The notes under the pieces: generated by a model
What the model was told of the DNA's origin: nothing
The model's input: only the letters and a program-made list of their open reading frames with translations
Databases searched by the model: none
NCBI GenBank assembly: GCA_949130485.1
Contig: OX422183.1
Coordinates: 21,445,202-21,509,201, forward strand
Length of the DNA stretch: 64,000 nt
Source: Agelas oroides
Lineage: Eukaryota > Porifera > Demospongiae > Agelasida > Agelasidae
Reading direction: 5' to 3'
In this document: in pieces, positions 19,075-61,246 of the stretch
Numbering within the stretch: position 1 is the stretch's first letter
Layout of the letters: each line of letters opens with the position of its first letter
Translations under genes and position numbers: made by a program

Positions 19075-19184
19075 GGTCCAAAGACAGTGTAAAGTTACGT
19101 AACCCTTTTATGAAGCGGAAATGCTGTATTGAACGTTTACGTGTCTTGCAACCAGAGTCGAAATTTCGGTCAATAGCCCTACAA

Positions 19185-19287
19185 TAGCCTTGTTCCCAAG
19201 CCCGTCCAGCTTTCCGTCGCTTGCAGTACCTAACCCTAACCCTTTCGATTTTTCGTTCGCGTGCGGGAGAGCCTGGGAACGAGGCTA
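19185..19287. mobile_element. Foldback element of the TAGCCTC family, 103 bp
   Basis: It starts TAGCCTTGTTCCCAAGC and ends GCCTGGGAACGAGGCTA. The flanks 19176-19184 and 19288-19296 are identical 9-mers, GCCCTACAA. This is one of the clearest target-site duplications in the window. Confidence 0.92.
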
Positions 19288-19369
19288 GCCCTACAACGCA
19301 CATTAAATTCATGAAATTGAAGCGCTTTGGTTCTTCTTTCTAGTTCTGCTAGTAAGAACATCGCATTCA

Positions 19370-19694
19370 ATATAGAGCGATTGCACGTGACGTCATTACG
19401 TTCGAGATTACGAAGGAAATCAGAAAACAGCCGCCATTTTGGTGCACAACGAGATAGGAGCTTCTATGGCGATCTTCACGAAATGAGTGATATACTTATA
19501 ATGCTTCTAATATGTGTTGAATCGGACAAAATACCATTGCTACATAAGTTAAAACAGCTATATAAACGCTTACCTGTGGGTGTTTTAATCGATATCGCAT
19601 ATACTGCTAATAACATACTGTACAAGTTGTGCACCAAAATGGCGGTTCATTTCTAGTATACGGAATTGTGATCACGTGCTGAGAACGCTCTATT
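19370..19694. mobile_element. Miniature element with CACGTGACGTCA-type ends
   Basis: The left end reads ATATAGAGCGATTGCACGTG and the right end CACGTGCTGAGAACGCTCTA in inverse arrangement. Inner inverted pieces CCGCCATTTTGGTGCAC and GTGCACCAAAATGGCGG support the structure. The ORF at 19327-19656 lies mostly inside it and is not a gene. Confidence 0.75.
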
Positions 19695-20879
19695 ATACTT
19701 TTATGTTTTAGCCGCTTTTTGCATGTTTCATTGGCCTTCTAGGGTATGCAACCCTTACTATGGAAAATAAGTTTCTTTGGGTGCAGATTTTGGTTGCATT
19801 TGCCGTCATACTGCTGTGACAACCAGCACCAAGCTCAGGACACCCCAAGAGATTATGACCCATGCAGTACAGTCAATTGGTGCTAGACTGGCTTTAATAC
19901 TTTACAGTTAGCACATGCAGAACCTCAGAGGAACAATATTCCACTCCTAATACCAGGTGGCAGAGGCTGTATGCTGGCATAGAGTGTGCATGCTTGTGTG
20001 TCTCTATTCATATATCACTCTAAGAAGAGATTATGTTGTTTTGACCATTTTAGGAGACAAAGTTCTGTATATGTACAGCCTGTGGTTATGATGCAAGCCA
20101 GGTACTATATAAGAAGAGATTATGTTGTTTTGACCATTTTAGTTGCATCAATCAACAGTTGAAATATGCAGAGATACTTCGGTGAGTTGGTTAACAATTC
20201 TTGTATTCCCATAGAGCATTGTAGCTTTTTTTTTTTTTGGGGGGGGGGGGGGGGGGGGGGGGCAAATACATAAGTGGTATCATCTGTAAATGAATATTTG
20301 CAGTCCATGCTCTGGGATTTTGCATTCACTAAACATCCGCGCCTTGGGAGTTTGGAAGATGTTACTAAGTGACATTTGTCACTAACTCACAGCATCTTAT
20401 TCACATGCACACCTGAAATAGCATCCTTTGGGTCATTTACTGTGAACAGCCCTGGACTCAGTGTGAAGTTTGACAATGTGCACACTCCATAAAGAAAAAA
20501 AGAAAGCTGATTCAGACTCTCCACCAACCAATTTTAAAATTATACAAAAACAAAAGATGTTTACTGAATGCAAAATCCCCAGAGCATGGACTACAAATAT
20601 TCATTTACAGATGATACCACATAATTATGACAACATCTCTTCTTACAGTATAGGGTCTGTACCTGCACCAGATCTTATCCTAACATGACGACACCTGACC
20701 CCTGACTTTGCCTTACGTGTCAAACTGCATAAAAAATAACATGTCTTGAGTGCTAAATTTCTGATCCTGAAAAGTTAAAAAGAAAAAGCTAGACATTGTC
20801 ATCTCCATGGAGTGTAAGGTACTTGTTCTCATAGTGGCGATAGATAAATTTTTCCAATTACTGTTTTGGGGTGGATCAT
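19695..20879. other. Repeat-rich part of the left arm with no gene
   Basis: The segment beginning AAGAAGAGATTATGTTG occurs twice (about 20022 and 20110). 20107-20310 is partly inverse to 20581-20660, with TGGTATCATCTGTAAATG facing CATTTACAGATGATACCA. A T run and a long G run lie at about 20227-20262. No exon was found. Confidence 0.5.
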
Positions 20880-21178
20880 TCACACAACTGTAATTCCTAG
20901 GATATCACGAGGTTGCATGACATGCATGGGATTGTAATGTCACAGAACCCATTCTGTTGGAGTACGGTTGTCAGAGCTTCTTCCCTGATGCTGAGTCCAA
21001 TACTAACAGTATACTCTCTTTTAGATTTAGTATATAGTAGTCCGAACACTAACCTAAAACAACACTGTCCAATCATCTTCTCATTTCCGACCATATAAAA
21101 GTAAGTGTTGCCTGGTCCTTCCAAAGTGAGTATATAGCACCAGCTTCCCCCTGAGAGGTAATTGTTGATACAGGTCAC
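20880..21178 (-). pseudogene. Methyltransferase fragment with inserted miniature element
   Basis: The minus strand reads GPGNTYFYMVGNEKMIG and then, after a foreign stretch, SIREEALTTVLQQNGFCDIT. These correspond to the C-terminal third of the methyltransferases (YMVGDENFFG, SIREETMTTVLQQEGFYDIT). The foreign stretch, 21002-21066, is the end of an ACTAAAA-type element and keeps the frame open by chance. The N-terminal two thirds are missing. Confidence 0.85.
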
Positions 21179-21439
21179 TTATACATAGGTGCTTTACTGT
21201 ATGAAATAAACTATATTGAATATAGAGAGATGGTTGCTTTGGGTTCCTAAGATATAGCTATGGGCAATTGTGTCACATCTACATTCAATGCAACTTAAGT
21301 CTTTGACAGACTTTTCAGGTCTAAGTCTCCAGTTCTTGCCCATCATTCATAGGCCCACAACAGTGGATACACCCCTTGTTGAAAGCGCAGTCTCCTCCTG
21401 GGAACCAGGCTAAGGATGGAGAAGGTGTGTTTGCCAATA

Positions 21440-59400: not shown

Positions 59401-59803
59401 GGGTTGTAGAGTTCAGTCTGAGTATAGTGGACGTGACTGGAGTAATGGCTAGTCTCACAGGCAGGACTCTCACTGGAGAGTTGGCCTGTGAAATTAAGTA
59501 GCACTACTCTTGTGCTTGGCTGCAAAAAATCTGTGAGAGTTACGTCATTGTGCTTGACTTCACAAAATGCCGAGGTGTACGCCTACTAGGATAGGTTTAT
59601 ACACTGCTCACAGTAGCTAATGGCTGATGTTGTGTTTGGCTGTAGAAAATCTTAGGGGTGATAGGTACTACATCGTAGCGCGGCGGCGAATTTTTTCAAA
59701 GTGTGCACCTTTAGACTGCAAAATAAAGTCTTTTTTCAACGGTGTATAATATTCTAGCCTCGTTCTCAGACCTTACCAACCAATTCACAATATTCAATTC
59801 ATG
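56484..59803. other. Intergenic DNA with hairpins and no gene
   Basis: Nothing coding is supported. 56786-56875 carries a GGGGCTCAC/TGAGCCCC foldback. 57297-57346 is a 50-bp near-perfect palindrome. 57619-57696 is another inverted repeat (GAAGCTTGACATAATT facing its inverse). The remainder looks unstructured. Confidence 0.5.
57297..57346. repeat. 50-bp palindrome without a loop
   Basis: AGCCAGGCGTATTTTACATA is followed by its inverse around a central CAAGATCTTG, with one mismatch in 25 pairs. The outer AGCCAGGC/GCCTGGCT recalls the foldback families, but no 9-bp duplication is present. Confidence 0.9.
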
Positions 59804-59857
59804 TAGTCTCGCGTAGCCAGACTCTCCTCCCTGCGAGAGTCTGGCTACGCGAGACTA
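59804..59857. mobile_element. Foldback element of the TAGTCTC family, 54 bp
   Basis: TAGTCTCGCGTAGCCAGACT faces its exact inverse, AGTCTGGCTACGCGAGACTA. The flanks are identical 9-mers, CAATTCATG (59795-59803 and 59858-59866). It may sit inside a larger, older element with ends at about 59755 and 60064 (TAGCCTCGTTCTC and GAGAACGAGGCTA). Confidence 0.93.
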
Positions 59858-59866
59858 CAATTCATG

Positions 59867-61147
59867 TGGAAAACAGATTGTAGCTACTTGACTTCGTCGT
59901 CGTTCCCAGCTTTCGTCGCTTATAGTAGTCTCTTTGAAAATCTGCATTAGCTTCATACCGAGCCATCTCACTGCCAAGATTTCGATCACCTTATAGTGTA
60001 CTTTAATCGGAAATGTACGCATGTAACTGCATATGAGACTGCCTCGCTCCAAGAGAACGAGGCTAGCTTGAGCTAGCTAAGCAGGTTATGAATATTAATT
60101 TACGGCCAAAAAAGTGTAGCGGCCAAAGCCGCTACGGCCGCTACGGTTCCTACGCCACTGGACAGTAAAGATTGCTGAGAGATGGGCAATGAATGTACAC
60201 ATAAATTGCAACGAGCCACACCCCATTAAGCACTAGTCCACGCCGGATCTCAGTCAGAAGCGGCACACCTACAACCCTTTGCTGTCTAGCCTCGAAAGCC
60301 GAGTCAAACCCGACCAAACAATTTCGACATAAAACGATCCGGATCTGGCTTGCAAGAATATTTGTGTGTGCGCGCACCGGAAACCTTGGAGACAACTCGA
60401 ACGCGAACTTGAACTCGAACTCGAAGTTTATCCATCCCTATCCAGGTTTACTATTACAATCTAATTGTACTAATTTGTCATCAACCGCCTTTTGTGCAGT
60501 AGTTCCTGTCATCTACTTGCGATCAACAGACATGGGGATGCTTGACATGAACGTGACGAACGGTGAGAAAGAACAGAGAGTATTAAATGTACCGAAAGGT
60601 CACTATTTTGTTGCATGTTAGTTTCTCATCCCCCGCCCGCATGCTTTTTGTGGATCCATAATTTTCTCTGGCCTGTAGAGCAGGTCAGAGACCAAGTAAA
60701 CTAGACTAGTGTCTCGTACCGCCGTGCAAAAAATAGTCTGGGCACGAGACTAGGATATAGGGATGCAGCTCAGCAACTTAGTCTCGCAAGCCAGACCCAA
60801 CCAACCCCTGAGAGCGATCCGCGCTGGGGATGGTTGGGTCTGCAGGGCTGTGCTTAAGTTGTTTTTTTTATCTGGGGAGGGGGCAAAGTTATTACCTGAA
60901 GTGGAGAACATGGCTGCCCTGCAGTCCTTCACTCTAGGGGGGTCCGGTGGGGATGATCCCCCAGGAAACTTTGGTAATTTTAGGTGTTCTGAGGTGGATT
61001 CTCGTGCAATCTGAGGCATGCAGAGAAGCACACAGAGCTTCTTGAGAAGAGACTCATCATCATTTATATCATCATTGCTTGCTGAGCTACTAGAACTGGA
61101 AACCATCTCCATTGGCTAGCCTATACCGAGCGCATGCACAACGCATG
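59867..61147. other. Intergenic region with foldback remnants
   Basis: 60105-60165 holds the right end of a GGCCGTAGC/GGTTCCTACGCC-type element. 60700-60752 and 60780-60842 are incomplete TAGTCTC-type foldbacks (CCAGACCCAACCA facing TGGTTGGGTCTG). ORFs at 60364-60621 and 60763-61112 have no recognisable domain. Confidence 0.5.
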
Positions 61148-61221
61148 TAGTCTCGTTCCCAGACCGCATTTTTCGCGCGCACCCGCCGCACTCAGCGAAA
61201 AGTTGTCTGGGCACGAGACTA
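61148..61221. mobile_element. Foldback element of the TAGTCTC family, 74 bp
   Basis: It starts TAGTCTCGTTCCCAGAC and ends GTCTGGGCACGAGACTA. The flanks CAACGCATG and CAATGCATG match at eight of nine positions, the difference being C versus T. Confidence 0.88.
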
Positions 61222-61246
61222 CAATGCATGCACGTATAGCTGACTG

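Follow-up and report, generated by a model that had tools for sequence, protein, structure and literature searches.

The nearest published animal case that we found to the elements described here is Tm1, a Mutator/Foldback family of root-knot nematodes, whose members are mostly non-autonomous, resemble miniature inverted-repeat transposable elements (MITEs) and have composite inverted ends (PMC3169594). They range in size from 0.17 to 2.5 kb and have asymmetric outer motifs of 7 bp, end repeats of ~14 bp in tandem and a known Phantom-type transposase; they show target-site duplications (TSDs) of 8-10 bp, most commonly 9 bp, in 45 of 53 elements (PMC3169594). More generally, Mutator-like elements (MULEs) are credited with TSDs of 8-11 bp and with inverted ends that can be short (14-500 bp) (PMC6446971). 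At the lower limit of size stand the internal eliminated sequences of Paramecium, which are derived from transposons and reach a minimum of 26 bp, far under the persistence length of DNA; they are bounded by TA, are excised by the domesticated PiggyMac and decay in place, with a length periodicity of ~10 bp and a forbidden second peak (PMC3464196). Here we present a family of very short, hairpin-like transposons in the sponge Agelas oroides, noticed in a window of 64,000 nucleotides (the whole stretch of DNA that was analysed, C1:21445202-21509201, where C1 is contig OX422183.1). The members have the ends TAGYCTC and GAGRCTA in common, carry a 9-bp TSD, and range from 24 to 833 bp.

The sponge family is like Tm1 in its animal host, its mostly non-autonomous members, its inverted ends and its 9-bp duplication. 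It differs in having inverted repeats as its outer 7 bp, in reaching sizes as small as 24 bp and in having no linked transposase; the Tm1 minimum of 0.17 kb is about three times the length of the 54-bp form discussed below. Compared with the MULE superfamily as summarised in that source, the TSD length is alike, whereas several micro-elements here have only 7-10 bp of perfect terminal complementarity and total 24-55 bp. It differs from the Paramecium sequences in including TSD-bearing elements of 36, 37 and 38 bp, in having members at every length from 30 to 35 bp and in the dispersal of its 54-bp form. The family behaves like MITEs, and the tested features place it among them; it stands out by its lower size limit, the dispersed 54-bp form and its self-folded ends. 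In the open-licence literature (titles and abstract openings), no description of these ends or of comparable micro-elements was found, and six end strings occurred there only in papers unrelated by title.

A 9-bp target-site duplication at the family ends

In the window, TAGYCTC was counted 46 times where 13.5 would be expected. Pairs of ends spanning 24-150 bp were collected there by allowing at most one mismatch summed over the two 7-mers, and a TSD was counted when the flanking 9-mers differed at no more than one position, a threshold used throughout; the chance level came from permuted right flanks (5000 permutations for the window). By this measure 7 of 27 window pairs carried a 9-bp TSD (permuted mean 0.46, maximum 3), and none of the 27 matched at 6, 7, 8 or 10-14 bp. 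A sample of twenty 10-kb stretches on eight contigs, 17 of them at round-number coordinates and three picked near listed hairpins, had the TSD at 7 of its 43 pairs, where permutation gave a mean of 0.24 and at most 3. With window and sample taken together, 14 of 70 pairs of up to 150 bp matched at 9 bp; the same 70 pairs gave one match at 6 bp, two at 8 bp, one at 10 bp and none at 7 or 11-13 bp.

Flanks were also read at 20 places from the start of the genome-wide list, which covers 259,295,671 bases in 141 contigs, after two identical copies (C1:135259 and C1:166659) had been left aside. A 9-bp duplication was present at 13 of these places, nine times perfectly, while an 8-bp match occurred once and matches of 5-7 or 10-13 bp not at all. 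Three of the 13 (L169, L170 and L172) apparently stem from a single insertion that was copied along with its surrounding DNA, which brings the independent count to 11 of 18. Seven further places picked for small size added three with the duplication. The first-pass annotation had proposed transposons of the foldback type whose duplication is fixed at 9 bp and which fall into several subfamilies. The excess at 9 bp only, in the window and genome-wide, together with the empty sites described below, upholds the first part of this: genomic flanks match well beyond the chance level, and the duplication, instead of varying in length, is dominated by 9 bp in the window and in the genomic list alike. 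The second part is supported as well.

The combination of terminal inverted repeats, a TSD of fixed length, many dispersed copies and empty sites is that of MITEs. Duplications of variable length, as expected of short interspersed elements or retroposed RNAs, were not seen, and hAT transposons leave an 8-bp duplication, a length found here at one of the 20 listed places against 13 at 9 bp. The 26 distinct perfect duplications average 49% G+C and show no clear consensus; the first position is never T and the composition is otherwise mixed. At three places (L171, L168 and L181) the repeats flanking the hairpin are 8 bp long or offset by a few bases, possibly through imprecise ends or later slippage.

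Perfect hairpins with covarying arms, in which the arm dinucleotide agrees in 37 of the 44 elements with both arms full (16.1 expected by permutation, maximum 26), would also suit retroposed or structural RNA genes, or palindromes born of replication errors. The TSD fixed at 9 bp, the empty sites and the termini held in common with elements of 317-833 bp stand against such an origin, which we judge very improbable indeed.

Within the window, all four perfect flanking 9-mers reported at the outset are present. They bound a 103-bp element at 19185..19287 (GCCCTACAA, at 19176-19184 and 19288-19296), a 37-bp element at 37104..37140 (GAGTGCAAA) with complementarity limited to its outer 7 bp, a 38-bp element at 53524..53561 (ACTAAAGAC), for which there is an empty site on C8, and a 54-bp element at 59804..59857 (CAATTCATG) with a perfect 23-bp stem. 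The three 8/9 matches are there as well, around a near-perfect 63-bp hairpin (30/31 pairs) at 23502..23564 (AGCTCTTGT/AGCTCTTGC), a 63-bp element at 38493..38555 (AAGAAAGGG/AAGAAAGAG) and a 74-bp element at 61148..61221 (CAACGCATG/CAATGCATG). A perfect 36-bp hairpin with family ends at 31325..31360 and a 43-bp pair of family ends at 51282..51324, which may be a chance occurrence, have no matching 9-mers, so that the smallest TSD-bearing element of the window measures 37 bp. None of these nine features is assigned a strand.

Size range, empty sites and dispersal

The pattern TAGYCTC-N10..39-GAGRCTA was found at 4750 places genome-wide, and the reversed control pattern at 62. In a survey of 358,971 bases, restricted to end pairs of up to 1000 bp and including some duplicated insertions and elements picked as small, 45 end pairs carried the duplication. 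Their lengths run 24, 27, 27, 27, 29, 36, 37, 38, 38 and onward to 103 bp, then 317-371, 636-639 and 831-833 bp; the span of 36-103 bp first given for the family was thus too narrow. The smallest elements with a perfect TSD are 27 bp (L020:2929-2955) and 29 bp (L185) long, the former with a single mismatch in either terminal 7-mer and with a duplication of low complexity, GGGGAAGGG. The 24-bp element L188 matches at 8 of 9 positions, and several micro-elements have perfect terminal complementarity over just 7-10 bp.

By length class, the genome holds 118 places at 15-23 bp (control 31), 393 at 24-29 bp (14), 635 at 30-35 bp (12) and, by subtraction, 3722 at 36-53 bp (36), an excess per base of length of 9.7, 63, 104 and 205, respectively. 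Element numbers drop steeply below 24 bp. Of the 50 listed places in the 24-29-bp class, 30 are 27 bp long, probably in part by duplication, as L001:5612 and L194 have similar flanks. A 10-bp size ladder like that of Paramecium was considered and is unsupported, all six lengths being represented at 30-35 bp. Additionally, the stem pattern TAGTCTCGCGNNGCCAGA-N8..38-CGAGACTA matched 131 times forward and 129 times in reverse (control 0), and 46 places printed from it comprise 41 distinct sequences, in which loops on shared stems shrink as a series from 62 to 35 bp. How near two transposon ends can sit, and what minimum of an end a transposase requires, are open mechanical questions; since natural variants in length number in the thousands here, many of them built on the same stems, and fall off steeply below 24 bp, the size limit could be read from sequence.

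Copy searches with L185 and with the 54-bp and 38-bp window elements, each taken with 40 bp of flank on either side, returned both empty sites and further copies. For L185, two places on C1 join the left flank (query 1-40) to the right flank (query 70 onward), leaving out the 29-bp element and overlapping by exactly 9 bases: C1:936014-936084 (overlap 936045-936053) and C1:950031-950095 (overlap 950062-950070), at 91-98% identity. The 38-bp element has one such site on C8, with the overlap at 9743985-9743993 and flanks 83% (left) and 100% (right) identical. We read the three sites as the state before insertion, missing the element and one copy of the TSD. Other matches fall outside this reading: one further match to the left flank only and two places covering query 20-61, that is, flank plus the left part of the element, at 90% (C15:5700704-5700745 and C15:5687057-5687098) in the L185 search, and two places covering flank plus the left part of the element (C14:8281313-8281353 and C23:1733160-1733189) in the 38-bp search.

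Without its flanks, the 54-bp element recurs at 25 further places, spread over 13 contigs, among the best 40 of 346 candidates. Each match covers at least query 41-91 (the element being query 41-94) and passes the left boundary of the element by no more than 9 bases and the right boundary by no more than 15; two places on C8 have equal scores and may be one duplicated copy. At least five of the 25 are 54-55 bp long and 95-98% identical (C7:5099778, C12:9375629, C6:10140929, C14:7589886 and C15:8443389), and by these matches the 54/55-bp form is dispersed without its flanks. Amplification of the tiny form would produce such a distribution; shrinkage in place would not. Furthermore, the 38-bp element was matched over the element only on C22, C11 and C2 (88-95% identical), and window element 19185-19287 agrees with the 102-bp element L007:1862-1963 at 85 of 95 aligned bases; these two have different duplications, and both fuse the two ends of a 639-bp type right after GCAGTA(C).

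These copies bear on a rival account, in which longer elements inserted and then lost their interiors where they stood, through replication slippage or abortive gap repair, so that two tips remained between intact TSDs. By eye, L185 looks like the tips of a 363-bp type (L147:6489-6851) and the 53-bp element L016:9319-9371 like those of the 639-bp type, both with asymmetric breakpoints, and loop length differs from nearly every copy to the next, as the 41 sequences at 46 places attest. The 54-55-bp places lacking the flanks of the window copy, the 38-bp form found alone on three other contigs, and the two ~102-bp copies with nearly the same junction between different duplications are against it. 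We hold shrinkage in place to be possible, though rather unlikely.

Candidate transposases

The first-pass annotation had ascribed the 9-bp duplication to a Mutator-type transposase, which stays a candidate attribution. In support, 9 bp lies within the MULE range and the genome contains at least 119 MULE-domain matches; on the other side, the only MULE gene found between family ends is a nested one, and Merlin-type genes are present too (23 matches to DDE_Tnp_IS1595), in addition to four weak matches to PF00872. Eight MULE regions were fetched with their flanks, of which seven were not spanned by family ends and one was (L140:2157-7486). With its TAGTCTC ends, 8/9 duplication and internal MULE gene, L140 was a candidate for the autonomous partner, and was rejected on finding that the MULE unit is nested and has ends of its own. 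BLAST recovered a common unit, from ~2430 to ~7382-7396 of L140, in 6 of 10 further MULE copies, and in L140 this unit (2432-7382) is bounded by perfect 41-bp inverted ends, GGGATTCG...; a shared unit with its own inverted ends identifies it as a nested insertion. Its host, to which the MULE is unrelated, is a non-coding family element of ~379 bp, and the outer duplication belongs to this host. Family ends were found at the expected places around none of the ten further copies. The longer element with the same ends and a MULE transposase gene of its own, which the first reading had suggested seeking, was therefore not recovered among these eight regions and ten copies.

The L140 unit has ALS2CR8-like, MULE, CXXC zinc-finger and OTU protease domains in separate frames, and both it and a second MULE element, L141:104-5708, are bounded by inverted ends (GGGATYC...) that are perfect over 41-44 bp. 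A 53-bp and an 83-bp micro-element occur at L141:1790-2492 and again, in opposite orientation and with their respective duplications unchanged, at L143:5770-6468; since the same two lie in both MULE regions, micro-elements evidently hitchhike inside larger repeats.

A Merlin (IS1595-type) transposase might take the place of a MULE as the mover. The 23 domain matches would provide a source, and Merlin duplications are given as 8 or 9 bp in a source which also states that the ends begin with a conserved 5'-GG (PMC8101967). The sponge elements, in contrast, have ends defined by TAGYCTC, with the 9-bp duplications adjoining directly, and we regard a Merlin mover as improbable.

Proposed origin from single ends of longer elements

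The common ends read TAGYCTC(G/A), often followed by CCAGRC. Besides the 25 places, the search with the 54-bp element returned 15 shorter matches, 41-47 bp in length and 95-100% identical (100% in 11 cases), that span only query 54-94 or slightly more, one starting at 49. Judged by coordinates only, outward-facing inverted pairs bound 313-bp elements at C13:2368763-2369075 and C1:8701703-8702015 (98-100% identical), and one such pair bounds a 224-bp element at C8:2325926-2326149. From these coordinates we infer that the 54-bp element consists of a single 41-bp end of a 313-bp element, extended by 13 bases that complete a second terminus. The same origin fits the 74-bp window element 61148-61221, which is colinear with a single end of the ~379-bp L140 element (57/74 identical to the left end, 59/73 to the right).

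Eighteen ends, from nine long elements of six types (three types represented twice), were each compared with 200 shuffles. In 12 of the 18, an inverted copy of the inner region was equalled by at most 12 shuffles, and in ten of those 12 it begins at the CCAG motif (positions 11-12) with its partner 45-69 bp inward. As these 12 ends fold on themselves, a single end resembles a whole micro-element. The tandem-repeat ends and asymmetric terminal motifs of Tm1 and the FB type were not seen: the 18 ends start alike on both sides, and no tandem array was evident by eye in their first 60 bases.

We consider it probable that the family consists of non-autonomous terminal-inverted-repeat transposons of the MITE type that are moved in trans, and that the micro-elements arose as follows. 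A transposase supplied in trans, most likely that of a MULE, would cut with a 9-bp stagger. Many ends of the long elements appear to bear two oppositely directed copies of the inner motif, with the partner 45-69 bp inward, so that such an end would nearly be a complete miniature element, in need only of an outer TAGYCTCG at its inward edge. This terminus would be added if the inner copy at one end collapsed onto the opposite end through a short direct repeat such as GAGAGTCTGG; because the inner copy is oriented like the opposite end, a micro-element could result in a single step. Alternatively, snap-back copying might supply the missing terminus and give the same product. The product would retain two presumed inner binding sites at their native spacing, which the transposase could read as a left-right pair, and later deletions in the loop would yield the forms of 24-50 bp. 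A simple path from ordinary transposons to micro-elements is thereby suggested.

Several observations weigh against this scheme. By the shuffle measure, 6 of the 18 long-element ends have no inverted copy above chance, namely both ends of L005 and L141 (317- and 327-bp elements) and one each of L015 and L144. The 9-bp duplication is missing from 7 of the 20 listed hairpins and from four of the seven picked for small size. Some of the 25 matches to the 54-bp element are variants in the loop, measuring for instance 51 bp at C4:2385090 and 59 bp at C1:17781887, and the dispersal is read from match coordinates; the 24-29-bp forms may have shrunk in place after insertion. No transposase gene with family ends was found in eight of the at least 119 MULE regions, fetched with flanks, or in end windows of ten more. 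Also, the repeats flanking the MULE units are by eye ~10 bp and not 9 (10/10 in L141, 9/10 in L140), which makes those families not the obvious mover.

A bolder extension of the preferred scheme, which we put forward tentatively, is that of one-end transposons: many ends would be a folded pair of presumed transposase sites, one end plus a terminus of 8-13 bp would be a complete mobile unit, and the longer elements may be two micro-elements around a core. If so, units down to ~24 bp would be among the smallest transposing DNA segments known, and synapsis could proceed without DNA looping, because both sites lie on one short segment capable of forming a hairpin. Hairpins of 24-60 bp may be short enough for repeat finders to miss, and where they are overlooked, the share of DNA transposons in shaping a genome would be understated.

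One subfamily of this genome has the arm CTCGTTCCCAGGC, and hairpins of the form CTCGTTCCCAGGC..GCCTGGGAACGAG also occur, mostly at 29-31 bp, in cyanobacteria, Planctomycetes, Deltaproteobacteria and other bacteria, where at least 119 stretches contain them; identity over the 13-bp arm is built into the search pattern. The 123 hairpins of up to 31 bp in those 119 loci included none with TAGY..RCTA ends and none whose flanks matched over 6-12 bases when one mismatch was allowed, and a link to the sponge family is accordingly rejected as something shown; the likeness of the arms may be coincidence or old exchange. The same pattern had no matches in viral contigs.

Elsewhere in the window, repeated blocks of ~35-115 bp, spaced by ~400 bp and 4 kb, occupy 22546-27720 and resemble a degenerate array. 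Two NNMT/PNMT/TEMT methyltransferase frames lie on opposite strands at 17354-18181 and 40986-41783, and the other genes of the window include a protein kinase and a KIX domain near threshold.

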